From Glaciimonas immobilis (GTDB lineage: Bacteria; Pseudomonadota; Gammaproteobacteria; Burkholderiales; Burkholderiaceae_D), in assembly GCF_011947285.1 (NCBI RefSeq), contig NZ_JAAOZT010000009.1:434001-498000 (forward strand): DNA of 64,000 nucleotides. Reading direction: 5' to 3'. Both the position numbers and the translations under genes were made by a program. The notes under the pieces were generated by a model. It did no database searches and was not told the DNA's origin. It saw only the letters and a program-made list of their open reading frames with translations. This document shows, piece by piece, positions 17,794-33,397 of the stretch (its first letter is position 1; each line of letters starts with the position of its first letter).

Positions 17794-18642
17794 ATGATGC
17801 TTGAAATCAAAGGCCTCTCTAAAACATTCCGGGGAGGCTTTAAAGCGCTGAACCACGTTAGCTTGTCCTTCAAATCAGGCGAGATGGTCGCCCTGATAGG
17901 TGCGTCTGGCTCCGGTAAGTCGACCCTGTTACGTCACCTGTCAGGATTGATGTCGGCCGACATAGACGGCGGCGAGATACATCTTGATGGCCAGCCAGTG
18001 CAACAAAACGGCGTGATCAACCGCAACATACGTGCCGTCCGCGCCAACATCGGATTTGTCTTCCAGCAATTTAATTTGGTGGGCCGATTGCCGGTCTTGA
18101 CCAATGTACTGACCGGCGGGTTGTCGCGCATTCCATTGTGGCGCAGTTGCTTCAAATTATTCACCGCAGAAGAAAAAGCCGCCGGACTGGCCGCTTTAGC
18201 CCGCGTGGGTATCTCCGCGCATGCCTACAAACGTGCGTCGGCGTTGTCCGGCGGTCAGCAACAACGCGCCGCCATCGCCCGCACCATCGTGCAAAAGGCG
18301 CGCATCGTACTAGCCGACGAGCCGATTGCATCACTTGATCCCGAGTCGGCGCGGCGCGTAATGCAAACGCTGGCCGACATCAATCGTGAAGATGGCACCA
18401 CCGTCATCGTATCGTTACATCAGGTCGATGTCGCGCTGCGTTTTTGTGCCCGTACCGTGGCGCTAAGTAATGGCCGTGTAGTTTACGACGGTCCATCCAG
18501 TGCCTTGACCGAGCAGATGCTGCGTGACCTGTACGGCACGGAAGCTGACGATATTATTAGCGGTTCAAACACACTGACCCGTCCAAAGAGCGATGTGCCG
18601 ACCATTTTCGATGCGACGCGAGCGTTGGCCGCCGTAGCCTGA
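17794..18642 (+). CDS. phnC: Phosphonate ABC transporter ATP-binding protein PhnC
   Basis: PhnC energises uptake of phosphonates with PhnD and PhnE. Walker A (GASGSGKST), the PhnC-typical [12 protein letters not shown] segment, the signature [13 protein letters not shown], Walker B ([17 protein letters not shown]) and the switch His ([10 protein letters not shown]) are all present. Two adjacent ATGs at 17794 and 17797 are possible; they give about 282 residues, the family length, whereas the open frame starts 74 codons earlier. First gene of the phnCDE uptake operon. Confidence 0.95.
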
Positions 18643-18793
18643 ATCGATCATGCTGATATCGTATTGACGCCCGGGTCATTTGGTTCACGCTAATGTGGGC
18701 GCATCCACATACAAGAACGCTATACAAATAAAAGCATCATCCCCAAGTTATTGTTCCCATTTTTTGGTCCAACTTTCCATCGAGATACTTACT

Positions 18794-19771
18794 ATGCTTA
18801 AAAAACTTATGACTACCGCAGCCCTGGCTTTTGCTGTGTTAGCAGCTGGTGCCGTGCACGCGCAAGAGGCCGAAAAGTCGCTTAATTTCGGCATTATCTC
18901 CACTGAGTCGTCGAAGAATCTTAAGCAGGACTGGCAGCCAGTTCTGGACGAAATGAGCAAAAAACTAGGCATGAAAGTGAATGCCTTCTTTGCTTCCGAT
19001 TACGCAGGCATAATCGAAGGCATGCGCTTTGGCAAAGTCCAGATGGCCTGGTTTGGCAATAAATCCGCCATGGAGGCTGTGGATCGTGCCGGTGGCGAAG
19101 TCTTTGCGCACGTCGTTAATCCGGATGGTTCAGAAGGTTATTACAGCATGGTCGGTGTACCAAAAGACAGCCCGATCAAAAGCATTGACGACATCGTAAA
19201 GAATGCGAAAGTCCTCAACTTTGGCATCGGCGATCCTAACTCAACTTCTGGATTTTTGGTGCCTGGCTATTACATTTTTGCTAAAAATAATCTCGACTCA
19301 AAGACCGCCTTCAAAACGATTCGTAGCGCTAATCACGAATCAAATATTTTGGCAATCGCCAATAAACAAGTCGATGCTGCGGTTTTTGCCTCCGATACGA
19401 TGGACCGCATTACTGCGCGCTTGCCGGATATGGCGAGTAAAGTGCGCGTAGTCTGGAAGTCGCCATTGATCGCCGCCGATCCCTTGGTATGGCGCAAAGA
19501 TCTGCCGCAGGCAACCAAGAGCAAGATTAAGGACTTTTTCTTGAGTTATGGCAAGACCGGTCCGAACGCAGTGCAAGAAAAAGCGCAACTTGAAAAACTA
19601 CAGTTTAGCGGATTCAAAGATTCCACCGATGCGCAATTGAACCCAGTGCGTCAGCTTGAACTGTTCAAAGATAAAAATAAGATTGAAGCCGATACCACGC
19701 TGAACCTTGATGACAAGAAAGCTAAACTTGATGACATCAATCGCAAACTGACTGAACTGGCAAAAGCGTAA
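18794..19771 (+). CDS. phnD: Phosphonate-binding periplasmic protein PhnD
   Basis: PhnD is the high-affinity periplasmic phosphonate receptor. The ATG at 18794 gives 325 residues with a Sec signal peptide (to about residue 23, cleavage context VHAQE). The mature protein has the family features NFGIISTESS, the ligand-pocket segments SDYAGIIEGMRFGKVQMAWFGN and GDPNSTSGFLVPGYY (a Ser-Thr-Ser phosphonate-binding helix start), and DAAVFASDT. The frame extends upstream without similarity. It lies between phnC and phnE. Confidence 0.95.
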   Translation: MLKKLMTTAALAFAVLAAGAVHAQEAEKSLNFGIISTESSKNLKQDWQPVLDEMSKKLGMKVNAFFASDYAGIIEGMRFGKVQMAWFGNKSAMEAVDRAGGEVFAHVVNPDGSEGYYSMVGVPKDSPIKSIDDIVKNAKVLNFGIGDPNSTSGFLVPGYYIFAKNNLDSKTAFKTIRSANHESNILAIANKQVDAAVFASDTMDRITARLPDMASKVRVVWKSPLIAADPLVWRKDLPQATKSKIKDFFLSYGKTGPNAVQEKAQLEKLQFSGFKDSTDAQLNPVRQLELFKDKNKIEADTTLNLDDKKAKLDDINRKLTELAKA

Positions 19772-19774
19772 ACA

Positions 19775-20593
19775 ATGACCACGTTAGCGCCATCAAAAAT
19801 GCAAAAAGCCAGCGCCCAGCCAGCGCTGCCGACACCGCCTAAGCAACCCCTTGCACGTACGTTATTTTGGGGTGTGCTGGTGGTGATCTTGCTTGCTTCA
19901 TGGCGCGGGGCGGACATGCGGCCCATGGAGTTGCTGCGCGATGGCGGTAACATGGGCGTCTACGCCGCCAGCTTCTTTCCGCCAGATTTTCGTGACTGGC
20001 GCATCTACCTGGAAGAAATGCTGGTGACGTTGCAGATTGCAGTCTGGGGCACCGCTTTGGCAGTAGTGTGCGCAGTGCCGTGCGGCTTGCTGGCATCGTC
20101 GAATATCGCACCGCCATGGGTTAGTCAGCCGGTACGTCGCCTGATGGATGCTGCGCGTGCGATCAATGAAATGGTATTTGCAATGTTGTTTGTGGTGGCG
20201 GTCGGTCTGGGGCCATTTGCCGGTGTCCTGGCTTTATTTGTCGCCACTACAGGGACGTTATCCAAGCTGTTTTCCGAAGCTGTTGAAGCCATTGATCCGC
20301 AACCTGTTGAGGGTATTCGCGCCACCGGCGCGCATGCGCTGGAAGAAATTGTTTTTGGCGTGTTACCGCAGGTAATGCCGCTGTGGATTTCTTATGTGCT
20401 ATACCGTTTTGAAGCCAACGTGCGCTCCGCAACCGTCGTCGGCATGGTGGGAGCGGGCGGGATAGGCGTGATTCTGTGGGAAGTCATCCGCAGCTTTGAA
20501 TACGCGCAAACCTGTGCGGTATTGCTGATGATTGTTATCGCGGTAACCTTGATTGATCTTTGCTCTTCACGCCTGCGCAAACTGTTTATTTAG
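19775..20593 (+). CDS. phnE: Phosphonate ABC transporter permease PhnE
   Basis: PhnE is the inner-membrane permease of the phosphonate importer. The 272-residue protein has six hydrophobic segments and the binding-protein-dependent transport signature around [26 protein letters not shown], followed by [20 protein letters not shown]. It starts three bases after the phnD stop, so translation is probably coupled. A small inverted repeat (agccca/tgggct, 20607-20627) lies just after its stop, without a T tract, and might partly attenuate transcription into the next gene. Confidence 0.95.
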
Positions 20594-20690
20594 TGCTGGA
20601 TTTGACAGCCCAAAAGTTTTCTGGGCTATGCCCAACCTTGGTAATAAACTGTTATTGTTAGGGGGAGCAAATCAAATTCCCCTATTCCTC

Positions 20691-21236
20691 ATGACACTTC
20701 CCAGCGCTGTTAATCCTGCTTCTCCTACCATTACGGTCCGACTTGCAACACTTGACGATACCGATACTTTGGTGGCGTTGCTGGCGCAGATGGACCACGA
20801 TATAAAGGCGGATTCCGAGGCATCCTCGGACCAGCAAGCGAACAGTGCTAAACCTCACGACAGTATGGGTGCACTGAAGCGTCTCGATAGCGACGGCGCG
20901 CGCCGGGTTATTGCGCAGATGGCGACTTATCCCAACTTTAACGTATTGTTGATTTGTGCCGATGGCGTTGCCGTCGGCACGTTCAGTCTATTGATATTTT
21001 GCAGTCTGGCGCACGGAGGCAGCCAACAGGCGGTGCTGGATGCGGTCGTGATCAGCCCGCATTGTAGGGGACAGGGCATCGGTAGCGTAATGCTGGGACA
21101 TGCATGCAAAATAGCTGCTGATGCCGGATGCTACAAAATAGCGCTATCCTCCAGTCTGCAACGCATGGACGCGCATCGATTTTATGACAGCTATGGATTT
21201 CAACAGCACGGGATTAGCTTTGCATTGCCGTTGTAG
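20691..21236 (+). CDS. GNAT-family N-acetyltransferase in the phosphonate cluster (PhnO-like?)
   Basis: A 181-residue GNAT acetyltransferase when started at the ATG at 20691, where ITVRLATLDDTDTLV resembles the family N-terminus; the open frame begins earlier inside phnE. The acetyl-CoA loop is VVISPHCRGQGIGSVML and the C-terminal motif is RMDAHRFYDSYGF. PhnO, the aminoalkylphosphonate N-acetyltransferase of some phn operons, is a GNAT with a similar DAHRFY ending, so acetylation of aminophosphonates is a reasonable guess from location, but the protein is longer than PhnO because of an insert rich in Ser, Asp and Ala near residues 35-60. Confidence 0.75.
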   Translation: MTLPSAVNPASPTITVRLATLDDTDTLVALLAQMDHDIKADSEASSDQQANSAKPHDSMGALKRLDSDGARRVIAQMATYPNFNVLLICADGVAVGTFSLLIFCSLAHGGSQQAVLDAVVISPHCRGQGIGSVMLGHACKIAADAGCYKIALSSSLQRMDAHRFYDSYGFQQHGISFALPL

Positions 21237-21416: not shown

Positions 21417-22355
21417 ATGCATGCCAGTCAATCATATCCAGCGCACGCAGAGCATCCTTTGCATGCCGATTTAATAGCCTTGTCGTCTAGCGACGGTGCG
21501 CAAATTTCCGTGTCGCTACATGGCGGTCATATTTGTTCCTGGCGCACAGCCGATGGTATAGAACGTCTGTTCTTAAGTCCGTTGACAAAGTGGGATGCGC
21601 CGTCTGCGATTCGCGGTGGAATTCCTGTGGTCTTCCCCCAATTTGCCGGTCGCGGTCCGTTGCCCAAGCATGGTTTTGCGCGCACTTCGCAGTGGACTCT
21701 GATCGCCTCTGAACTCCGCGCTAATGGCGAGGGCTTTGTACACATGACGATGTCCGATACGGCCGAAACCAGGTCACAGTTTCCGTTCGCTTTCAAACTT
21801 GACTTACAGGCGAACTTTGCCGGTGCCTCGCTTAGTACCGCGTTGCTGGTGACTAATACCGGTGAGCAATCATTCGATTTTACCTGCGCCTTACATACTT
21901 ACTTAGCCGCCGAGGTGCCTGCCGCAGGGACGCCTGTCGCAGGATCGCCTGCCGCAGGATCGCCTGCCGCAGTACCTTCACAGCCAGCAATCCTCGGCTT
22001 GTCTACATGTCGCTATGAAAATAGTATCCCCGCAGACCCGCTTAATTTTGATGGAAATGGCACATTGCACATTACCTCTGAGGTAGATAGCATTTTCTTT
22101 CAGGCTCCCGCTACGGTGGAATTAGCTACCAGTAATATGGTCATGCAGATTCAGCAGGGCGGATTTGAGGATATCGTGGTGTGGAATCCGTGGGTCGCAG
22201 GCACGGAAAAAATTGGAGATCTGATGCCTGACGCGTACCAACATTTTGTATGCGTTGAAGCGGCTACCATCGAACACCCGGTGACACTCGCGCCGGGGGT
22301 GCAATGGCGTGGTCATCAGGAATTTCTGGTTAAGCCGATCGCGCATGTTGATTGA
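21417..22355 (+). CDS. D-hexose-6-phosphate mutarotase (YeaD-like)
   Basis: An aldose-1-epimerase-fold protein of the glucose-6-phosphate 1-epimerase subfamily, which interconverts alpha and beta sugar phosphates. Family motifs: HGGHICSWRTADG, SAIRGGIPVVFPQF, KHGFARTSQWTL, and the C-terminal IVVWNPWVAG with the catalytic-type region. The start at 21417 has a ggaaggg ribosome binding site about 7 bases upstream. Residues about 167-186 are an Ala/Gly/Pro-rich insertion encoded by a 15-base tandem repeat. It sits between phnCDE and phnGHIJKLM; a role in phosphonate use is not established and it may simply be a neighbour. Confidence 0.88.
   Translation: MHASQSYPAHAEHPLHADLIALSSSDGAQISVSLHGGHICSWRTADGIERLFLSPLTKWDAPSAIRGGIPVVFPQFAGRGPLPKHGFARTSQWTLIASELRANGEGFVHMTMSDTAETRSQFPFAFKLDLQANFAGASLSTALLVTNTGEQSFDFTCALHTYLAAEVPAAGTPVAGSPAAGSPAAVPSQPAILGLSTCRYENSIPADPLNFDGNGTLHITSEVDSIFFQAPATVELATSNMVMQIQQGGFEDIVVWNPWVAGTEKIGDLMPDAYQHFVCVEAATIEHPVTLAPGVQWRGHQEFLVKPIAHVD
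21917..21976 (+). repeat. In-frame 15-base tandem repeat, four units
   Basis: Units of the form gcctgccgcaggatc at 21917-21931, 21932-21946, 21947-21961 and 21962-21976 differ by one to a few bases. The length is a multiple of three, so copy-number change would lengthen or shorten a PAAGS-type linker in the mutarotase without breaking the frame. Confidence 0.85.
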
Positions 22356-22419: not shown

Positions 22420-23844
22420 TCATATTTGCGGACGGCGCAAAATTTCGGATAGCTGGCGTCCCGCAATCTCAATCGCGCCGCTATTGTCGATATACGTAAT
22501 GCCAGCCACTTTCTCGGGGTTGAATCCTGCGCTGCGGAGTAAGCGACTTTGCAGCGCAGCCTCAGATTCGCGTTGTCGATTTTTTATGCGCTTGAGGATT
22601 AATTCTTTATCCGCATAAATCCAGATAATCTGCGCCTCAGGAAATAATTGCTGTAACTGCGGTATGTACGCGCGTGATCCGTTGATGACAACATCTCGAC
22701 CCACTTTTAAATCTGCTTCGATCTTTCTTGCTATGCCGTACCGTGTGTCGTTTGCCTGCCAGTGCAGGCTGAAGTGACCGTCATGCAGGCATAGTTGAAA
22801 CTCATCTTCTGTCATGGCGTGGTGCGCTTCGCTGACGTGGGCGGGACGGGTCACGCAGCGTCTGGCAAAGACGGTTCCGTGATCGTGCGGCAATTGTGCT
22901 TGCACCCATTGCAGCAAGGTATCTTTGCCGACGCCGGATGGTCCGACTACAAAGAATAAGCGGCCTTCGGCGGGTAAATCTGGCACATCTGCACACACCG
23001 TCTCAGCACTTTGCGTGAACGGAAAATGTCGCCACACCATCATCGCCGCGCCCGGTGACGACTCCTTAAAAATCGTCAGGCCATCTATCACTAAGGGCGC
23101 GTCCGATGCAGCGATTGCATCGGCGAAGCATGCATCAGCGGCTGTCTGCAATGCTGCAATATCAGATTTTTCCAACGCTGCAAGGCTATCCGTCAAGGTC
23201 AAATGAAAGCGATATTCCTCTTCTGTATAGGGGTAGCCCCAACGTGAGAGAAGTGCTTCCTGGCGCGCACTTAAGCCAGCCTTGTGCCGCTTGGATAGTT
23301 CGGCATCTGTCGGCGCCGCTCTCAATAAATCGAAATAGCGTACGCATCGCGTAGCGAGGGCACCGATTTGTCTTTTGCTGGCGGCGTTGGTCGTTTGCAG
23401 TGCCAGAAAATGCCCAAGTGCGTGAACGCCTATATCAAGGACAGGAACCGGCTTTTGCCGGGTGGCAAAGAAAGCTGCCATCTTCAGCAGATCCTCTTCC
23501 GAAAATCCTTTTGCTAACCGAAACGGCGCTTTTAATGTGGCGTGAAAGCCATAGCGCTGCGCATCTCTGGTCAGATGACCGAGCGCACCGGGTGATAATT
23601 CTGCAATTTCCGGCTGTATCGACGGCAGGTCGGTGATAGCGTCGCGTCCCAACCATTGGCTGGCTGCGTGCCACCAGTCGGCGTGATGCAGCGGCGCAAA
23701 ATAAATCGCGTATCGCTCCTGCTTTAGGCCGGGAGGCTGACACTCGTTGCCACTATCAGTCCCAATAACCGGGATAGTATCGGGCGCTAGCATCGGTGCG
23801 AGGGATGTCATTGGTATCATTGGCGCTGCTGGGGTCGAAGGCAT
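22420..23844 (-). CDS. phnN: Fusion: DUF1045 2H-phosphoesterase domain + PhnN ribose 1,5-bisphosphokinase
   Basis: Counting from the ATG at 23844 (474 residues; a TTG at 23892 is also possible), residues about 43-260 form a DUF1045 phosphonate-metabolism domain of the 2H phosphoesterase superfamily, with both histidine motifs present: HAT at 101-103 (GFHATLKAPF) and HLT at 214-216 (YRFHLTLTDS). Residues about 295-474 are PhnN, which phosphorylates ribose 1,5-bisphosphate to PRPP, with Walker A GPSGVGKDT at 301-309. The first 40 residues are a low-complexity Pro/Met/Ala stretch. The two functions are usually separate genes. It is divergent from phnG across a 260-base gap. Because no phnP is visible, the 2H domain may open the cyclic ribose phosphate that PhnN's substrate comes from; this is inference. 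Confidence 0.93.
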   Translation of the reverse strand: MPSTPAAPMIPMTSLAPMLAPDTIPVIGTDSGNECQPPGLKQERYAIYFAPLHHADWWHAASQWLGRDAITDLPSIQPEIAELSPGALGHLTRDAQRYGFHATLKAPFRLAKGFSEEDLLKMAAFFATRQKPVPVLDIGVHALGHFLALQTTNAASKRQIGALATRCVRYFDLLRAAPTDAELSKRHKAGLSARQEALLSRWGYPYTEEEYRFHLTLTDSLAALEKSDIAALQTAADACFADAIAASDAPLVIDGLTIFKESSPGAAMMVWRHFPFTQSAETVCADVPDLPAEGRLFFVVGPSGVGKDTLLQWVQAQLPHDHGTVFARRCVTRPAHVSEAHHAMTEDEFQLCLHDGHFSLHWQANDTRYGIARKIEADLKVGRDVVINGSRAYIPQLQQLFPEAQIIWIYADKELILKRIKNRQRESEAALQSRLLRSAGFNPEKVAGITYIDNSGAIEIAGRQLSEILRRPQI

Positions 23845-24106
23845 TGTTGGCAAATCTGTTAAAAAAAGCGCACTGAAAAGAGTCGAATACAACCAATAAA
23901 AATTACCGCCACAATGCTTTGCTGCTGACCTCTGTTGTGCGCCTGTTGTGCGTCAGTGGCTAGGTGTGGCGATAATTGGAATGACTTAAATAGTACTGCT
24001 TAAATGTTACCGCTGATTGACATTGTGACCAATATATTTCGTGTCATAGGGATGGCGCCAGCTTCAATGTCATCAAGCGTTAACATTCCGATGTTTCAAT
24101 GATCGC
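23845..24106. promoter_or_regulatory. Divergent promoter region between the phnN fusion and phnG
   Basis: About 260 non-coding bases between the leftward phnN fusion gene and the rightward phnG operon. Promoters for both should lie here. No regulator gene (phnF or similar) is adjacent. Confidence 0.45.
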
Positions 24107-24583
24107 ATGGAATCAAACACACTTGCTTCGGCGCACATTGCACGCGCGTCATGGATGTCATTACTGGCTAAAGCACCGGGTCCTGTTTTGATCGATGCGG
24201 TTGCTCGTTACACGCGACAACATGGCGTGCTTCCGACGCATATCTGGTTGCGGCGTCCAGAGATTGGACTGGCAATGGTGCGCGCACGTACTGGCGGCAC
24301 CGGTCAGCAGTTTAATCTGGGGGAAATGTCGCTCACGCGTTGTGCGTTGCGTCTTGCCTGCGGTCAAATGGGCGTGTCCTACGTCGCGGGACGGGACGCG
24401 CAACATGCCGAGTGGGCCGCATTATTTGATGCGTTATTGCAGACCGACACCGCGGCGCAGGTTGAGCAAATGATCTTGCTGCCAATCAAAGACGCGCTGG
24501 CTGCGCAACGTGCGGCAGTCGATGCGCAGGCGGCGGTTACCAAGGTCGAATTCATGACGATGGTCCGAGGAGAAAACGAATGA
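24107..24583 (+). CDS. phnG: C-P lyase subunit PhnG
   Basis: PhnG is a small subunit of the PhnGHIJ carbon-phosphorus lyase core complex, which couples ATP to phosphonates and breaks the C-P bond. The 158-residue protein begins with the family-typical ARASWMSLLAKAP and contains RPEIGLAMVRARTGGTGQQFNLGEMSLTRC split across the usual central region. First gene of the phnGHIJKLM operon; its stop overlaps the phnH start by four bases. Confidence 0.95.
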   Translation: MESNTLASAHIARASWMSLLAKAPGPVLIDAVARYTRQHGVLPTHIWLRRPEIGLAMVRARTGGTGQQFNLGEMSLTRCALRLACGQMGVSYVAGRDAQHAEWAALFDALLQTDTAAQVEQMILLPIKDALAAQRAAVDAQAAVTKVEFMTMVRGENE

Positions 24584-25191
24584 GTGCCCTTCCAGAAGTC
24601 GCGCTGCTACCAGCGTGGGACGATCCGGTCCGCGAGTCCCAGGCTACTTTCCGTGCCATTTTGAAGGCGTTGTCGGAGCCAGGATTGGTCCAGACTATTG
24701 GTGCCGATATCGAATTTCCGCCGCCGCTATTTTTATCGACCACCGCACTTTGCCTTGCGCTGGCAGATGTGGAAACCCCGGTATGGCTGGACCCAGGCGC
24801 TGACACAAACTCGCTTAACGCCTACTTGCGCTTTCATTGCGGTTGTCCATTGGTGGAAGATCTGGCGCAGGCGAGCTTTGCAGTGGTGACCGATCCGCAG
24901 CAATTGGAGAGCGAACACTTCTTCTCGCAATTTTCGCTCGGGACGATGGAATATCCTGATCGTTCGGCCATGTTATTTTTGCAGGTACCCGATTTAACCG
25001 GTGGGCCACAGCGTGTTTTCAGCGGCCCCGGGATTGATGGTCAGCGTGCGGTACGCGTAGCGGGCTTGCCAGTCAATTTCGATGCAATGTGGCAAAAAAA
25101 TGTCGATGGATTTCCACGCGGAATCGATTTGATATTTTGTCACGGACCACACATTCTTGGCCTGCCACGCACCACCAGAATTGTTAACTGA
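24580..25191 (+). CDS. phnH: C-P lyase subunit PhnH
   Basis: PhnH is a homodimeric core subunit of carbon-phosphorus lyase. The 203-residue length and motifs (AWDDPVRESQATFRAILKAL, TPVWLDPG, GTMEYPDRSAML, LTGGPQRVFSGPGI, DGFPRGIDLIF) fit the family. The ATGA overlap with phnG indicates translational coupling; an agga sequence lies just upstream of the start. Confidence 0.96.
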   Translation: MSALPEVALLPAWDDPVRESQATFRAILKALSEPGLVQTIGADIEFPPPLFLSTTALCLALADVETPVWLDPGADTNSLNAYLRFHCGCPLVEDLAQASFAVVTDPQQLESEHFFSQFSLGTMEYPDRSAMLFLQVPDLTGGPQRVFSGPGIDGQRAVRVAGLPVNFDAMWQKNVDGFPRGIDLIFCHGPHILGLPRTTRIVN

Positions 25192-25237: not shown

Positions 25238-26440
25238 ATGTATGTTGCAGTCAAAGGTGGCGAGAAAGCCATCGAAGAATCGTATCTGGCCTTAGCGCGG
25301 GTCCGCCGCGGCGATCCGGCGCTGCCTGAAATATCGATAGACCAGATACGTGAACAAATGCCACTGGCGGTCGCGCGCGTGATGACTGAAGGGTCGTTGT
25401 ATGACCGCGATCTGGCGGCGCTGGCGATCAAGCAGGCCAGCGGCGATTTGATTGAAGCGATATTTTTGTTGCGCGCTTACCGGACCACGCTGCCGCGATT
25501 GTTATCTACGGTGCCAATCGACACCGCAAAGATGGCAATTGAGCGACGAATCTCGGGGACATTTAAAGACGTACCGGGCGGTCAGATATTGGGCGCGACT
25601 TACGACTATACGCAGCGTCTTTTGGACTTTTCACTGGCTGCAGAAGCGACCTTGCAGGTCAGCCCGCAGAGCACGACAACGCCACCATCCTGCGTTGATA
25701 CGGTACCAGAGGGCGCGGCCAGCATGACAGCGACCGCCGCTATGCCGCGCGTACTGGACTTTCTCAATGCCGAAGGGTTGATTGAGCAGGAGTCAATTCC
25801 GGCAGGTGATCCGGCACCGGGCGACTTAACCCGCGACCCGCTTGAGTTCCCGGCACAACGCGATATCCGCTTGCAAAATCTGGCCCGAGCGGATGAAGGG
25901 TTCGTTCTTTCTATGGCCTATTCTACTCAGCGCGGTTACGCTAATAGTCATCCGTTCGCTGGCGAAATCCGGCACGGAAAAGTGAGTGTAGAAGTAGTGC
26001 CGGAAGAGCTTGGTTTTGCTATCGAGATTGGCGACATCGAAATCACTGAATGTCAGATGGTGAATAAATTTGCAGGTTCGCACACGGAGCCGGCGCGCTT
26101 CACGCGCGGTTATGGATTAACCTTTGGCTACAACGAGCGGAAGGTCATCGCGATGGGATTGATGGACCGCACCTTGCGTTGTCAGGAATTGGGTGAAGAG
26201 GCCAGCTCGCCAGCGCAAATGGCCGAATTTGTGTTGTACCACTCGGACAATGTGGAGGCGTCCGGATTTTTGCAGCATTTGAAGTTGCCGCATTATGTTG
26301 ACTTTCAGGCAGAGCTTAATTTGATCCGTGCATTACGTCGCCAAACCGCGGATGTTATGGATGCCGCTCCGGCAGTCACCCAAAATAACCACGCAGATGA
26401 CGCCAATGCCAATGGCGCACGATTCGATAAGGCCGCATGA
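25238..26440 (+). CDS. phnI: C-P lyase subunit PhnI
   Basis: PhnI is the nucleosidase-like subunit that, with PhnG and PhnH, joins phosphonate to the ribose of ATP while releasing adenine. The 400-residue protein starts MYVAVKGGEKAIEESY and contains QIREQMPLAVARVMTEGSLYD, VPGGQILGATYDYTQRLLDF and the C-terminal FTRGYGLTFGYNERK and HSDNVEASGFLQHLKLPHY blocks typical of PhnI. It is slightly longer than the usual protein because of an Asn/Ala-rich tail. A ggag ribosome binding site precedes the ATG, and the stop overlaps phnJ. Confidence 0.97.
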   Translation: MYVAVKGGEKAIEESYLALARVRRGDPALPEISIDQIREQMPLAVARVMTEGSLYDRDLAALAIKQASGDLIEAIFLLRAYRTTLPRLLSTVPIDTAKMAIERRISGTFKDVPGGQILGATYDYTQRLLDFSLAAEATLQVSPQSTTTPPSCVDTVPEGAASMTATAAMPRVLDFLNAEGLIEQESIPAGDPAPGDLTRDPLEFPAQRDIRLQNLARADEGFVLSMAYSTQRGYANSHPFAGEIRHGKVSVEVVPEELGFAIEIGDIEITECQMVNKFAGSHTEPARFTRGYGLTFGYNERKVIAMGLMDRTLRCQELGEEASSPAQMAEFVLYHSDNVEASGFLQHLKLPHYVDFQAELNLIRALRRQTADVMDAAPAVTQNNHADDANANGARFDKAA

Positions 26441-27354
26441 TGGAGGCCCCGACTATTGCGTTGCCGCAGTCGCCGCAATCTTTACACTTCATGCCAGCGG
26501 TGCAGCCAGAACCCGGCTATAACTTCGCCTATCTGGATGAACAAACCAAGCGCATGATCCGTCGCGCCATCTTGAAGGCGGTTGCGATTCCCGGCTATCA
26601 GGTGCCTTTTGGTGGCCGTGAAATGCCATTGCCTTACGGCTGGGGCACTGGCGGTATCCAGGTCACCGCCGCAGTAATCGGCCGGAATGACGTGTTGAAG
26701 GTGATTGATCAAGGCTCGGACGATACCACCAACGCGGTTAATATTCGTCGCTTTTTCCGACGTACCACCGGCGTGGCGACAACCGAGCGCACGACCGAGG
26801 CGACATTGATTCAAACCCGTCATCGTATCCCCGAAACACCGCTATCCCCAGGGCAAATAATGATCTATCAGGTGCCGATTCCCGAGCCGTTACGCTGGTT
26901 GGAACCAAGCGAGCAGCAGACCCGTAAATTGCACGCGATGGCCGACTACGGTCTCATGAGCGTTGAGTTGTATGAGGATATTGCGCGCATGGGTAAAATT
27001 GCGACGGCCTACGATTATCCGGTGGTGGTCAATGATCGGTATATGATGCGTCCGTCGCCTATTCCTAAGTTCGATAATCCCAAGCTTGATCATAGTCCGG
27101 CGCTGCAAATTTTCGGCGCTGGTCGTGAAAAACGGATCTATGCGGTGCCGCCTTACACATCGGTTAAAAGTCTCGATTTTGAAGACTATCCGTTCGAGAT
27201 CGAGAAGTGGGATCACTGTTGCAGCTTATGCGGCGCGGAGGAAAGTTTCCTTGACGAGATCATTGTCGACGACCATGGCGCACGCATGTATGTGTGCAGC
27301 GATACCGATTATTGTCAGCAGCGGGTGGTCGCACAAACGCCGCAAAAATCATGA
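26437..27354 (+). CDS. phnJ: C-P lyase radical SAM subunit PhnJ
   Basis: PhnJ is the 4Fe-4S radical-SAM enzyme that cleaves the carbon-phosphorus bond of ribose 1-phosphonate 5-phosphate, yielding the 1,2-cyclic phosphate and an alkane. Four cysteines at 262, 265, 287 and 293 have the same spacing as the essential cysteines of the E. coli enzyme (241, 244, 266, 272), in the contexts CSLCG and CSDTDYC. The N-terminal half holds YNFAYLDEQTKRMIRRAILK and GGREMPLPYGWGTGG, also typical. ATGA overlaps couple it to phnI and phnK. Confidence 0.98.
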   Translation: MMEAPTIALPQSPQSLHFMPAVQPEPGYNFAYLDEQTKRMIRRAILKAVAIPGYQVPFGGREMPLPYGWGTGGIQVTAAVIGRNDVLKVIDQGSDDTTNAVNIRRFFRRTTGVATTERTTEATLIQTRHRIPETPLSPGQIMIYQVPIPEPLRWLEPSEQQTRKLHAMADYGLMSVELYEDIARMGKIATAYDYPVVVNDRYMMRPSPIPKFDNPKLDHSPALQIFGAGREKRIYAVPPYTSVKSLDFEDYPFEIEKWDHCCSLCGAEESFLDEIIVDDHGARMYVCSDTDYCQQRVVAQTPQKS

Positions 27355-28160
27355 TCCCCGATATTTCTTCTCCTTTATCTTTGCCTTTGTCTTCTCCTCT
27401 ACTAGCGGTTGAAAACTTGACGCATCGCTTCGGTGCGTTATCAGCCTGCGAGAATATTAATTTGCAGCTTTATCCGGGCGAGGTCCTGGGTATTGTTGGT
27501 GAGTCCGGCTCCGGTAAAAGTACCTTGCTGAACTGTCTGGCGGGCCATCTGGCACCGAGCGAGGGCCGGGTAATGTTTTCTACGCGGCATGAAGGCGTGG
27601 TCGATTTATATAAAATCAGCGAAGCGCGGCGGCGCTTGTTATCGCGCACCGACTGGGGCTTCGTACATCAAAGTGCGCGCGATGGATTACGGGCAAATGT
27701 ATCGGCAGGCGCGAACGTGGGCGAGCGCTTGATGGCGATTGGCGCGCGCCATTACGGCAATATCCGTGAAGAGGCCTTGCATTGGCTGGATCGGGTGGAA
27801 ATCGATGCTAATCGGATTGATGATCTGCCGCGTCATTTTTCGGGTGGTATGCAGCAGCGTTTGCAAATTGCGCGCAATCTGGTGACTAAGCCACGCTTAA
27901 TTTTTATGGACGAGCCGACCGCAAGTCTTGATGTGTCGGTGCAGGCGCGGTTACTGGATTTGCTGCGCCAGCTGGTATCCCAATTGCACGTCGCTGCGGT
28001 GATCGTTACGCATGATCTGGCAGTGGCAAGATTGTTGGCGCACCGATTAATGGTCATGCGTCAGGGGCAGGTGGTTGAGCAGGGTTTGACGGATCAGGTA
28101 CTTGATGACCCGCAACACCCTTATACACAGTTACTAGTCTCGTCAGTTTTACAGGCATGA
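27351..28160 (+). CDS. phnK: C-P lyase ABC-type ATPase PhnK
   Basis: PhnK is an ABC ATPase that binds the C-P lyase core rather than a membrane permease. Walker A GESGSGKST, signature SGGMQQRLQIARNL, Walker B LIFMDEPTASLD and switch His (VIVTHDL) are present, with the PhnK-typical DWGFVHQSARDGLR at the Q-loop. The ATG at 27351 overlaps the phnJ stop (ATGA) and gives 269 residues; an in-frame start 57 bases upstream lies inside phnJ and is unlikely. Confidence 0.96.
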   Translation: MIPDISSPLSLPLSSPLLAVENLTHRFGALSACENINLQLYPGEVLGIVGESGSGKSTLLNCLAGHLAPSEGRVMFSTRHEGVVDLYKISEARRRLLSRTDWGFVHQSARDGLRANVSAGANVGERLMAIGARHYGNIREEALHWLDRVEIDANRIDDLPRHFSGGMQQRLQIARNLVTKPRLIFMDEPTASLDVSVQARLLDLLRQLVSQLHVAAVIVTHDLAVARLLAHRLMVMRQGQVVEQGLTDQVLDDPQHPYTQLLVSSVLQA

Positions 28161-28164
28161 GAAC

Positions 28165-28917
28165 ATGGATGGTAATCGGATGAAGCCATTAAGACAGATT
28201 GAAGTAAGAAACCTTTCAAAAGAATTCGTATTGCATCTGCAAGATGGCTTGCACATGCCGATTTTTTCTTTGGTCGACATGGATGTTGACGGCGGTGAGT
28301 GCGTAGTTATTCATGCACCCTCTGGCGCGGGCAAGAGTACCTTGCTGCGTTGCCTGTACGCGAACTATCGCGCCAGTAGCGGCAGCGTCAATATCCGGCA
28401 TGTGCCAGATCGCAATGGTGGTGGAGATGGCGACTGGGTGGATTTAACCACAGCATCGCCACAGCAGATTCACGCCGTACGACGTACGACGCTCGGCTTT
28501 GTCACGCAGTTTTTGCGCGTGATACCACGCATCACTACGCTTGATCTGGTGGCCGAGCCGTTGATCAGTCGAGGCATGGCCGTCGACGAGGCGCAGGATC
28601 AGGCTAAGTCGTGGCTCGCCAGATTGAAAATTGCGCCGCGGCTATGGCAAGTGCCACCGGCGACGTTTTCTGGCGGAGAGCAACAACGCGTCAATATCGC
28701 CCGCACACTGATCAGCGATTTTCCGATATTGTTGCTTGACGAGCCGACTGCCTCGCTAGACGAAGGCAATCGCGATACCGTCATCGCGATGATTCAGGAG
28801 GCTTGTGATCGTGGCACCGCAGTGGTGGGCATCTTTCACGACGAATACGTACGGCGCGCTTTGGCTACCCGGTTGTTTCCGCTAGAGGCAATACAATCGG
28901 TAGCAATGGAAGCGTAA
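28165..28917 (+). CDS. phnL: C-P lyase ABC-type ATPase PhnL
   Basis: PhnL is the second ABC ATPase of the C-P lyase system and pairs with PhnK on the core complex. Motifs: Walker A APSGAGKST, LGFVTQFLRVIPRI at the Q-loop, signature FSGGEQQRVNIART, Walker B ILLLDEPTASLD and switch GIFHDEYV, all PhnL-like. The start at 28165 is four bases after the phnK stop; an ATG at 28180 is an alternative. Confidence 0.96.
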   Translation: MDGNRMKPLRQIEVRNLSKEFVLHLQDGLHMPIFSLVDMDVDGGECVVIHAPSGAGKSTLLRCLYANYRASSGSVNIRHVPDRNGGGDGDWVDLTTASPQQIHAVRRTTLGFVTQFLRVIPRITTLDLVAEPLISRGMAVDEAQDQAKSWLARLKIAPRLWQVPPATFSGGEQQRVNIARTLISDFPILLLDEPTASLDEGNRDTVIAMIQEACDRGTAVVGIFHDEYVRRALATRLFPLEAIQSVAMEA

Positions 28918-29137: not shown

Positions 29138-30271
29138 ATGACCGCAATCTTCGCCATCAAAAACGCGCGTATCGTCGGCTCGGAAGAGCACTTTATCGGC
29201 AACCTATCTGTTGCCGATGGCATTATCAACGAGCTCTCCGCTGGTGCATCGCAAGTGGGAGAGGATTGGGATGGCGACTATTTGATTCCAGGCCTGGTCG
29301 AGCTACATACTGATAATCTTGAAAAACACTTGATGCCGCGTCCCAAAGTTAACTGGCCGATATTGCCAGCTATTCTAGCCCATGACGCGCAGATTGCAGC
29401 AGCGGGGATCACGACGGTTCTGGACGCACTGGGGGTTGGTGATATTGACCCCGAAAGCGTGCGCAGTACCATGCTGGCAGCTTGTGTGACGAACCTGCAA
29501 CAGGCGCGTGCTAACGGCTTGCTGCGCGTTGAACATTATTTGCATCTGCGACTGGAACTGGCAGAAGAAAACCTGCTCGACATGTTCTCGCCTTTCGTGA
29601 ATGACCCGACCCTGAAGTTGGTGTCATTGATGGACCACACCCCCGGCCAGCGGCAATGGACGGACCTCAGCCACTACCGGATATATACTACTGGCAAGCG
29701 TGGATGGAGCAACGAAAAAGTCGATGCGATGCTGGAGGACATGCGCGAGCGCCAGGTCCGCTACGCAGACGATAATCGTCGTCGCATCGTCGAGAGTTGC
29801 AATGCCATTGGTAAGCCTATGGCGACCCATGACGACACCACTATTGCGCACGTAACCGCAGGGTTTGCAGAGGGTATCAAAATTTGCGAGTTTCCGACCA
29901 CCATGATTGCAGCACAGACTGCGCGCAAGCACGGTTTAGGCACCATTATGGGCGCGCCAAACGTGGTGCGCGGCGGATCCCACTCAGGCAACGTCTCTGC
30001 GGCTGAGCTGGCACGCGCAGATTTACTGGATGTACTGTCATCAGATTACGTTCCGGCCAGCTTGTTGCACGCTGCCTTTTTGTTGCAAAAAGAAGGTTAC
30101 AGCCTGCCGAAAGCTATCAATACTGTATCGCGTAATCCAGCGCGCATGATCGGGTTTGAGGACCGTGGTGAAATCGCTCCCGGTTTGCGTGGCGATTTTC
30201 TACGGGTGCGCGTGGTCGATGACATCCCCGTGATTTTGCAAGTATGGAAATCGGGTCAGCGCGCAATATAA
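29138..30271 (+). CDS. phnM: Alpha-D-ribose 1-methylphosphonate 5-triphosphate diphosphatase PhnM
   Basis: PhnM removes pyrophosphate from the triphosphate made by PhnGHI, giving the PhnJ substrate. The 377-residue amidohydrolase-fold protein has the metal-binding start DYLIPGLVELHTDNLEKH, HDAQIAAAGITTVLDAL, MDHTPGQRQW, ATHDDTTIAH and the C-terminal SSDYVPASLLHAAFLLQ typical of PhnM. It is the last phn gene in the series; about 80 bases later the degraded IS5-type element begins. Confidence 0.97.
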   Translation: MTAIFAIKNARIVGSEEHFIGNLSVADGIINELSAGASQVGEDWDGDYLIPGLVELHTDNLEKHLMPRPKVNWPILPAILAHDAQIAAAGITTVLDALGVGDIDPESVRSTMLAACVTNLQQARANGLLRVEHYLHLRLELAEENLLDMFSPFVNDPTLKLVSLMDHTPGQRQWTDLSHYRIYTTGKRGWSNEKVDAMLEDMRERQVRYADDNRRRIVESCNAIGKPMATHDDTTIAHVTAGFAEGIKICEFPTTMIAAQTARKHGLGTIMGAPNVVRGGSHSGNVSAAELARADLLDVLSSDYVPASLLHAAFLLQKEGYSLPKAINTVSRNPARMIGFEDRGEIAPGLRGDFLRVRVVDDIPVILQVWKSGQRAI

Positions 30272-30348: not shown

Positions 30349-31206
30349 CTTGTTTAAAATCTTTTCAACATCTTCTCAAGAGCAAAACGAGAAATGCCAA
30401 ATTAACGAATTGAAGGCTGGTGTTAAGCTGCCGTTCACAGTTTTTCCCCAGCCTTCTGCATTTTTCAAGCCAGGCAAAAGAACGTTCTACCACCCACCGC
30501 TGAGGCATCACCGCAAAGGTATGAAGCGCACTGCGTTTTGCAACACTGACAGAGGCTCCCACTATTTCGCATACGGCATCGGCAAAAGGCTGTCCGGTAT
30601 ACCCACCATCGGCCATTATATTAACGACTTTGGAGAGTGTTTTTTTGTGCCGTGTCAGCGCTTCCACAGCGCCTTTTCTATCCGTGACATCGGCCGTCGT
30701 CACCGAAATCGCATGCGGTAAGCCCTGTGTATCCACGGCAATATGGCGCTGGATACCAGATACTTTTTTACCCGCGTCATATCCTTTGTACTTTGCCGTA
30801 TCCGTATTTTTTACGCTCTGCGCATCAACGATGAAGAACGTGGTCAACGCGCTCCGTCCATTGCTGGTGCGGACCGCGCCAGCCACATTTTTTAAAAGCC
30901 TGCTCAAGCAGACTTAGTCCATCCTCCGACGGCCTCTCTTTCCATAGCTGAAAGTAATAATAGACCGTGCTCTTCTTCGGAAAATCACTCGGAATCATGT
31001 CCCATTGACACCCACTTTTCAGCAGATACAGAATCGTGCAAAATACGTCGTCCACATCAATTTTCCCGGGCTTCGGGCGCTTACCCGCACTCAACAACAG
31101 CGGGGCTATTTATTCGAACATCTCTCGACTATATCGCTTGGGTATTTTTTTCGCATGCAGCCCAAAAACACAATTACTTCTACATTGGCAAAAAATTTTA
31201 AACAGG
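30349..31206 (-). mobile_element. Degenerate IS5-family insertion sequence (ISL2-like group)
   Basis: The decayed transposase frame is bounded by imperfect inverted repeats: cttgtttaaaatcttt at about 30349-30364 and its near complement at about 31191-31206 (14 of 16 positions match). The exact outer ends and the target duplication could not be fixed by eye. The element lies between phnM and an AT-rich accessory gene and marks the left end of the island. Confidence 0.7.
30365..31156 (-). pseudogene. IS5-family transposase, inactivated
   Basis: Read leftward, the protein starts MRKKYPSDI, the typical beginning of this transposase group, then loses frame near base 31130. In the next frame YSREMFE is followed by a TAA where Gln is expected, then IAPLLLSAGKRPKPGK continues. 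A second frame change occurs at the A-rich run near 30890-30900, between LLEQAFKK and LKNVAGAVRT. The catalytic part is then complete in one frame: IVDAQSVKNTDT, GYDAGKKVSGIQRHIAVDT, and the C-terminal RWVVERSFAWLEKCRR with the last acidic residue. Two frameshifts plus a nonsense codon make it a pseudogene; only the A-run shift might have been programmed. Confidence 0.85.
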
Positions 31207-31693: not shown

Positions 31694-33397
31694 ATGCGAT
31701 TCCCTTTACCGTGCCATCAATTGACTCAATCTTATCCACTCAGAGGTAATAATAGAGATACACATGTAATGCGTGGAGACAAAAAATTTATACACAATAT
31801 ACATGCAGTACATAGCTTCCCTACGCTCTTTTCAAAAACCAGCATGATTCGGTCTCCCTCAGTACAACAGTCCAGGAATACTGAAACTGGCACACTGGTA
31901 ACAGCAATTCTGTCGGTTGAACCAATGACGTCTGCGACGCAGGCTCCCGAAGAAAAAATTTCAAGCGATTTTGGTCACCCCAGTACCCCTTTACTAAAGT
32001 TTAACAATAACAGAGCAAAACTCTCTGCACACCATGAAAAAACTTTTGTTGCATTCAAAGATATTCCTGACAGCTTAACAATTACCGTAGAGAACGACTT
32101 AACTCCGCGTGATAAATATGATGAAGCCACTCTTACTCCGGAGAGTTGTGATACAGGTAAAGCGAGTTACGTCAATGTTAACGATCAAACTATTTATAAA
32201 AGCATACAGGGAGACGGGATTATATTGCAGCCTTTGCTAGAGCCATATTCAAAAAATATTCCTATGGATGGCATTGTTTTTAGACACAATTTTAAGACCG
32301 CAGTCACTATAGGAGATAGAACTTCTCTGGTGAAGTATGATGCTGCTCTTGGAGCCTGGAGAAAATATAATGGCTGGAATGATCAGTTAAAAAACCCTGT
32401 ATGGTTGATTTCAACATCTCCGGCAAAATGGGAAACTGGATCGGTAGATCAATACAAGAAAATAGCAACAACGCTACCAGTTGCTGTGGAAATTAAGGCA
32501 GTTGAGATGCCACGCATACCAAAACTCCCAGATAATATTCAACCAATACCTAAAACAATCCATTATGTTTGGGTAGGAGATGAAGCACTGCCAGAAAAGA
32601 TGGTAGAAAACATAAAAAAAAATCGGAGCAATAGTCATGGTTTTCAATCGATCATACATGTCGATGCTATCCAAAAAAATGTATTAACAGAAATTCAGAA
32701 ACAATTTGAAGGGTCTGGTATAACAATATCTGATCTTAATGATGAGAAATTTTTTAAGAATTTCCTGCCAACCGAAAATAGTGGACTCTATACTCACGCT
32801 AAAAAAGTTAAAAGGTATGTTAATTCAGCCGACTATATGCGCTGGCGATTGATTAATGAATATGGTGGAATTTATATGGATGTAGACGACGCATTCAAAC
32901 AGTCCATAGAAAACATTGATATTTTTGCAGCACATGGTGATGTTTTATTAGGACCAGTGGTAGTAAACTACAATGTTGGATTTGAAGGCTATAACTCTAG
33001 TATTTTTGCTAGTCTGGCAAATAATCCGGTAGTGATTAAAATATTAGAAAAAATGACCAATATTTATAATGCCGACAGATCATTTTATGATAAAGCGCGC
33101 CCGGTTCTCATCAGAAACGCATTGGGCAATGTTATTGTAGGTTCGGAAGAAGAAATGCGCGTTTATGCTAGGCAGGTTTTTGAACGTACTGGCCCTGGAA
33201 TGTGTAATGACGTCCTAAAAAAATATCGGCCAGACTATTATGATTTATTTGATAGGTATCAATATTCAGGTTTGTCAGTTCATATTGTCAATTGCCCATA
33301 TGACAATAAAATGCGGGAAGTTTTAGATCATTACCTTCCATTTTTCGAAAAAGTGCCGGTTGAGATTGGCCATGCTAATTCATGGGAGGTCAATTGA
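31694..33397 (+). CDS. DXD-motif glycosyltransferase, toxin/effector-like
   Basis: A 567-residue protein. Residues about 280-540 form a glycosyltransferase domain of the sugar-binding DXD type, related in pattern to the catalytic domains of large clostridial toxins and many bacterial effectors: IPKTIHYVWVGDEALPEKM opens the domain, YVNSADYMRWRLINEYGGIYMD leads to DVDD at about 396-399 with the metal and nucleotide-sugar binding DXD, and later NVGFEGYNSSIF and ALGNVIVG. The N-terminal 270 residues are unknown and could be a secretion or targeting region; there is no Sec signal peptide. The gene is far more AT-rich than its surroundings and lies between two broken insertion sequences, so it was probably acquired. 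Substrate and secretion route unknown. Confidence 0.75.
   Translation: MRFPLPCHQLTQSYPLRGNNRDTHVMRGDKKFIHNIHAVHSFPTLFSKTSMIRSPSVQQSRNTETGTLVTAILSVEPMTSATQAPEEKISSDFGHPSTPLLKFNNNRAKLSAHHEKTFVAFKDIPDSLTITVENDLTPRDKYDEATLTPESCDTGKASYVNVNDQTIYKSIQGDGIILQPLLEPYSKNIPMDGIVFRHNFKTAVTIGDRTSLVKYDAALGAWRKYNGWNDQLKNPVWLISTSPAKWETGSVDQYKKIATTLPVAVEIKAVEMPRIPKLPDNIQPIPKTIHYVWVGDEALPEKMVENIKKNRSNSHGFQSIIHVDAIQKNVLTEIQKQFEGSGITISDLNDEKFFKNFLPTENSGLYTHAKKVKRYVNSADYMRWRLINEYGGIYMDVDDAFKQSIENIDIFAAHGDVLLGPVVVNYNVGFEGYNSSIFASLANNPVVIKILEKMTNIYNADRSFYDKARPVLIRNALGNVIVGSEEEMRVYARQVFERTGPGMCNDVLKKYRPDYYDLFDRYQYSGLSVHIVNCPYDNKMREVLDHYLPFFEKVPVEIGHANSWEVN

Follow-up and report, generated by a model that had tools for sequence, protein, structure and literature searches.

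A carbon–phosphorus (C-P) lyase gene cluster in a 64,000-nucleotide stretch of the Glaciimonas immobilis genome (contig NZ_JAAOZT010000009.1; hereafter the window) was found to carry a single gene joining a DUF1045 domain of the 2H phosphoesterase type to the kinase PhnN. We interpret its product as a bifunctional enzyme acting at the end of the C-P lyase pathway (probability roughly 0.8), in which the 2H domain would open 5-phosphoribosyl 1,2-cyclic phosphate (PRcP) to ribose 1,5-bisphosphate, standing in for the unrelated PhnP, and the PhnN domain would convert the bisphosphate to phosphoribosyl pyrophosphate (PRPP). Directly evident from the sequence were the fusion, the intact motifs in both domains, the lack of PhnP, and the link to C-P lyase, whereas we infer the substrate, the bond broken, and the reaction order of the fused protein; in particular, cleavage would leave C1 phosphorylated, as PhnN requires the 1,5-bisphosphate. 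The proposed first step, PRcP opening, is based on the missing PhnP, its mutual exclusion with DUF1045, the predicted fold, the invariant residues, and the fusion itself.

Architecture and fold of the fused protein

The gene lies on the minus strand, which the preliminary description had not specified, as one open frame opposite a plus strand with many stop codons, and an alternative TTG start at 23892 would lengthen the product to 490 residues. As that description had stated, translation and profile matches placed both HxT motifs and the PhnN P-loop in one protein encoded within a C-P lyase cluster. The N-terminal half was assigned to DUF1045 by PF06299 (150.7 bits against a cut-off of 24.3, residues 103-268), and the C-terminal half to PhnN by the equivalog profile TIGR02322 (176.6 bits against a cut-off of 156) with an intact P-loop, the two domains being separated by a linker of about 16 residues. 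The match to TIGR03223, the profile of the DUF1045 proteins of phn operons (putative phosphonate metabolism protein), reached 221.7 bits over residues 44-277, below its cut-off of 248.95. The three fused relatives compared had nothing matching the 43 residues ahead of the homologous region. Of 576 relatives, the best 80 were kept; nearest to the fused protein among these were isolates or bins named as Herminiimonas, Undibacterium hunanense, or Noviherbaspirillum, at 47-52% identity, which makes the Oxalobacteraceae the probable family of the organism.

In the aligned DUF1045 domains, H101 and H214 were each conserved in 106/106 and T103 in 103/106, and position 216 was occupied by T (95), S (8), or P (3); both catalytic histidines were also invariant in a wider alignment (146/146 domains). 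The two HxT/S motifs with both histidines, together with the modelled 2H fold, are consistent with membership of the 2H phosphoesterase superfamily. The fold was taken from an AlphaFold2 model of residues 41-285 with a predicted local distance difference test score (pLDDT) of 95.7; a model of the whole fused protein built from 4 sequences (mean pLDDT 72.5) was not reliable enough near the first motif to be used. As the best match of the domain model, Foldseek returned the Arabidopsis Appr>p cyclic nucleotide phosphodiesterase (1jh7, 1jh6, 1fsi), which is 12-14% identical and has 181-185 residues compared with the 245 modelled here. The substrate of this enzyme, ADP-ribose 1'',2''-cyclic phosphate, contains the same ribose 1,2-cyclic phosphate as PRcP, and the enzyme leaves the phosphate on the anomeric carbon.

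Distribution of DUF1045, PhnP, and PhnN

The G. immobilis assembly (4.9 Mb, 31 contigs, rated 100% complete) contains one PhnJ, one DUF1045, and one PhnN. The absence of phnP, noted preliminarily for the window and now sought genome-wide, held for the whole genome: TIGR03307 gave five weak matches, the best at 26.4 bits against a cut-off of 272.25. A PHP-type PhnPP was sought in this genome only, as PF02811, and three PHP-domain proteins were found.

To survey co-occurrence, as had been proposed, samples of 399 genomes from the order and 398 from the phylum were drawn. PhnJ was present in 42 and 83 of them, respectively, making 119 distinct genomes, in all of which DUF1045, PhnN, and PhnP were sought; this set is weighted towards the order of the window and towards Pseudomonadota. 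With PhnP counted at the curated cut-off of 272.25, DUF1045 and PhnP proved near-perfectly exclusive: 86 of the 119 had DUF1045 only, 26 PhnP only, 1 both, and 6 neither. DUF1045 was thus present in 87/119 and PhnP in 27/119, and DUF1045 occurred in 86/92 of those lacking PhnP. Counted per genus (n = 74), the distribution was 48 with DUF1045 only, 19 with PhnP only, 1 with both, and 6 other or mixed, and both cluster types occurred in families f1, f4, and f49. In the sole genome with both (G327), PhnP lies in the phn cluster and DUF1045 on another contig beside PhnM. Weaker PhnP-type matches (E to 1e-12, at most 111.2 bits) in 11/54 and 22/77 genomes, DUF1045 genomes included, were not counted as PhnP, because they fell far below the cut-off and, by the coordinates listed, all were more than 30 kb away from any PhnJ match, the least distant at about 33 kb (G464).

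On the PhnJ tree (106 rows, representing 105 of the 119 genomes, with the "neither" rows left out; the other 14 genomes had no PhnJ stretch in the set), the DUF1045/PhnP state needed just two changes, and a Fisher value of 1.9e-19 was therefore rejected as a measure of the strength of the exclusion. A diverged second PhnJ copy of G468 formed a very long branch beside a PhnP clade. As for the genomes with neither enzyme, two of the six (G140 and G208) have a cluster cut off by the end of a contig; the G208 contig stops inside phnM, and in its congener G177 DUF1045 comes after that phnM. The phn clusters L040 and L041 (genomes G743 and G746) lie inside a PhnP clade of the PhnJ tree and are without DUF1045. 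No PhnP match at E 1e-12 was obtained in these two genomes, a state that may reflect either loss or a third solution. By Pfam, none of 10 open frames of the "neither" loci L022, L040, and L043 resembled a cyclic phosphodiesterase that could serve as a third PRcP opener; L041, L042, and L114 were read for phn genes only.

The association with PhnN was examined in 30 loci of the order whose genomes have PhnJ (the window, L007-L026, and L105-L113; G327 is not among them). One of the 30 lacked DUF1045, and in the other 29 DUF1045 was either fused to phnN (4) or directly beside it (25). In all 25 unfused pairs phnN occupied a different frame from DUF1045; a possible phnN start fell within the end of DUF1045 in 24 of them (ATGA in 11, GTGA in 2) and 5 bases after the start of the DUF1045 stop codon in the remaining one. 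A frameshift would therefore suffice for fusion. In 64 loci of the wider phylum, the nearest labelled neighbour of DUF1045 was PhnM alone in 31, PhnN alone in 4, both in 17, and neither in 12. That the 2H domain is joined to the very next enzyme of the pathway is a strong clue favouring a PhnP stand-in, and it also makes a direct hand-over of the product from the 2H site to PhnN plausible.

Fused genes were found in 12 of the best 80 named loci out of 576 relatives, which is not a frequency because these were retrieved with a fused query, and three of the 12 (L129, L130, and L132) repeat genomes already in the draws (G389, G069, and G220). On a dense DUF1045 tree (72 rows, 13 fused) the fused state changed 4 times, with one change in 0% of 200 bootstrap trees, and a single origin as one clade was rejected by the approximately unbiased test (p-AU 0.0023). 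An earlier, sparser test (4 fused among 106 domains) did not reject a single origin (p-AU 0.662), the tree grouping them being better by 14.7 log units, and a PhnN tree (74 rows) grouped the 4 fused proteins without support (37). Such counts of changes do not separate gains from splits of the fusion, and misassembly could create or mask a fusion in the several fused rows that derive from metagenome bins. The phn clusters of three bins titled Bordetella parapertussis (L149, L150, and L156) resemble those in other bins of betaproteobacteria; these titles may be wrong.

DUF1045 beside PhnM and alternative interpretations

In the order draw DUF1045 was present in 30/42 PhnJ genomes and 12/357 others, and in the phylum draw in 62/83 and 9/315, respectively; two of these last 9 are weak matches (37.8 and 30.1 bits), and the locus was opened for G255. 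Several observations weigh against the proposed function. Above all, 12 of the 42 DUF1045 genomes of the order draw lack PhnJ, 11 of these 12 also lack PhnN, and in 10 of the 12 DUF1045 lies beside PhnM, only some of these loci also having transporter genes; the family must therefore have a use outside C-P lyase. These PhnM-DUF1045 pairs are the main result opposing a simple reading of DUF1045 as a spare PhnP, and the preliminary account leaves them unexplained. Furthermore, the fused protein falls short of the TIGR03223 cut-off, yet the PhnM-paired protein of L027, outside a C-P lyase cluster, exceeds it (269.1 bits). Four PhnJ genomes (G245, G300, G743, and G746) have neither enzyme and no contig edge to account for it, the first two having completeness ratings of 91% and 94%. 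Nor can the 119 genomes be counted as independent, because clusters travel as units and two changes suffice on the PhnJ tree. A PDB sequence search found no chain clearly alike (best E 0.62), and no assay of any DUF1045 protein was found in the accessible parts of the literature searched.

Pairs of PhnM and DUF1045 without phnGHIJKL, sometimes with phnCDE-like transporter genes, were seen in L027, L028, L030, L031, L033-L036, L038, and L039, also in L029, and in the named loci L136, L139-L142, L146, L147, and L175. For Undibacterium and its kin, the trees place both the paired PhnM and the paired DUF1045 closest to the corresponding PhnM and DUF1045 domain of the window cluster (99 and 96, respectively, each for a starred set of 19 rows), and in U. 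hunanense a fused cluster (L124) coexists with a separate PhnM-DUF1045 pair (L175).

These pairs are the basis of an alternative in which DUF1045 acts with PhnM and not after PhnJ, opening or trimming a ribosyl 1-phosphate or phosphonate ester that PhnM makes, so that C-P lyase clusters would be a special case. The kinship of the pairs to the window's proteins, the PhnM neighbour of DUF1045 in 10 of the 12 PhnJ-less genomes and in G327, the rarity of PhnN among the PhnJ-less genomes, and the 48 of 64 wider-phylum loci in which PhnM is the nearest labelled neighbour on one side all speak for it. It would, however, leave PRcP without an opener in the 86 PhnJ genomes lacking PhnP, and it does not explain the fusion to PhnN, whose substrate is the very product of PRcP opening; we thus regard it as unlikely. 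A second alternative retains PRcP as the substrate and changes the cleavage, which would yield ribose 2,5-bisphosphate, or ribose 5-phosphate and phosphate as with PhnPP, with PhnN joined by operon history only. That 2H enzymes vary in the bond broken, and that 2/77 phylum genomes (G414 and G429) have DUF1045 and PhnJ without PhnN, would suit such a scheme; the constant attachment or adjacency of phnN in 29/29 order PhnJ loci with DUF1045, and a nearest fold whose enzyme leaves the phosphate on the anomeric carbon, make it improbable.

Finally, some other hydrolase of the genome might open PRcP, leaving the DUF1045 domain a role in, for example, regulation or RNA repair, and the five weak TIGR03307 matches and three PHP-domain proteins are conceivable candidates. 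All eight are located on contigs other than that of the phn cluster, the 2H motifs are intact, and DUF1045 is found in nearly all PhnJ genomes without PhnP, so that we consider this explanation very improbable. The preliminary proposal that the fused 2H domain may replace PhnP is accordingly well supported by the lack of a genomic phnP, the near-perfect exclusion, the invariant histidines, and the fold match to a ribose cyclic phosphodiesterase. A broader scheme, which we hold only as a doubtful possibility, would make DUF1045 more than a substitute for PhnP: PhnM would be the oldest partner of DUF1045 in a ribosyl-phosphate module present also in bacteria without C-P lyase (Undibacterium and its kin), and in the window's lineage the same pair would serve a C-P lyase cluster, joined to PhnN in one protein that takes PRcP to PRPP with site-to-site hand-over of the bisphosphate.

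Gene cluster, related systems, and implications

The features of the cluster are summarized in Table 1. The fused gene faces away from phnG, with phnGHIJKLM on the plus strand and phnCDE on the other side. On the phnCDE side, a GNAT protein (20553-21236) shows weak kinship to PhnO (53 bits, cut-off 142) and may acetylate aminoalkylphosphonates. Located between the fused gene and phnCDE is an aldose-1-epimerase-like gene (21417-22355, PF01263), for which the 20 loci L007-L026, within their reach, contained no homologue at E 1e-5. Directly after phnM, IS4/5-type transposase frames (DDE_Tnp_1, DUF4096; 30365-31097) border the cluster, and a nearby 567-aa protein (31694-33397) has a DXD glycosyltransferase region (Gly_transf_sug, 37.6 bits). 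In five fused relatives (L123, L124, L126, L143, and L149) the fused gene is immediately preceded, on the same strand, by an additional phnM-like gene, which the window does not have.

Table 1. Positions in the window of the fused gene, its domains and motifs, and the other phn genes
Feature	Position	Strand	Basis
Fused DUF1045 (2H phosphoesterase)-PhnN gene	22420..23844	-	474 aa from ATG 23844
2H phosphoesterase domain, proposed PRcP phosphodiesterase	23014..23715	-	residues 44-277
First HxT motif, H101-A102-T103	23536..23544	-	translation
Second HxT motif, H214-L215-T216	23197..23205	-	translation
PhnN ribose 1,5-bisphosphate kinase domain	22435..22965	-	residues 294-470, full-length TIGR02322 match
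P-loop GPSGVGKD of PhnN domain	22921..22944	-	residues 301-308, translation
phnC, phnD, phnE, phosphonate transporter	17797..20593	+	TIGR02315, TIGR03431, TIGR01097 above cut-offs
phnG	24107..24583	+	TIGR03293, 151.6 bits (cut-off 89)
phnH	24580..25191	+	TIGR03292, 177.1 bits (cut-off 91.5)
phnI	25238..26440	+	PF05861, 526 bits
phnJ, C-P lyase subunit making the cyclic phosphate	26437..27354	+	PF06007, 498.5 bits
phnK (start uncertain)	27345..28160	+	TIGR02323, 388.6 bits (cut-off 302.85)
phnL	28165..28917	+	TIGR02324, 308.6 bits (cut-off 256.3)
phnM	29138..30271	+	TIGR02318, 450.3 bits (cut-off 390.55)

The fused protein differs from each of the known systems to which its parts can be compared. 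PhnN of E. coli is a separate protein, whereas here PhnN forms the C-terminal half, with its P-loop intact. PhnP (TIGR03307) is of the metallo-beta-lactamase type, and the fused domain, proposed to catalyze the same reaction at the same place in the pathway, is of the 2H type instead. The LigT- and YjcG-type 2H phosphoesterases act on RNA, at 2',3'-cyclic or 2'-5' phosphodiesters. In Eggerthella lenta, PRcP is likewise acted on by a non-PhnP enzyme, PhnPP, which is a PHP-type metalloenzyme and gives ribose 5-phosphate and phosphate. With the RcsF/DUF1045 proteins of phn operons, the fused domain shares the PF06299 family, the two HxT motifs, and the occurrence in clusters without phnP, and it differs in its fusion to PhnN and in its score below the TIGR03223 cut-off.

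In the parts of these publications accessible to us, a 2H protein termed RcsF, encoded in clusters without phnP, was proposed to perform the work of PhnP, and a fosmid with such a cluster gave methylphosphonate growth to E. coli lacking phnHIJKLMNOP (PMC3840354); the same proposal was repeated for marine isolates (PMC5649143). The phnP gene was counted in 27/54 operons and rcsF in 16 without phnP (PMC10574752, citing Podzelinska 2009), DUF1045 was described as a putative phosphoribosyl cyclic phosphodiesterase (PMC8235418, citing Hove-Jensen 2014), a DUF1045 protein was raised under phosphorus stress (PMC10132767), and the gene order phnN-Duf1045-phnM was given for Achromobacter (PMC11203657). 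From family and context, we equate the RcsF of PMC3840354 and PMC10574752 with DUF1045. The replacement of PhnP by DUF1045 is hence an idea already in print and not new; no description of a DUF1045-PhnN fusion was found in the accessible parts of the literature searched, and the fusion adds a new form to a substitution that is known but unproven.

Being naturally joined to the consumer of its presumed product, DUF1045 can be assigned a predicted substrate as well as a predicted product, and one protein offers the predicted conversion of PRcP to PRPP for a single assay. If the proposed function is true, clusters of the DUF1045 type would gain a defined PRcP-opening step, and the analysis also brings to light a PhnM-DUF1045 module outside C-P lyase.
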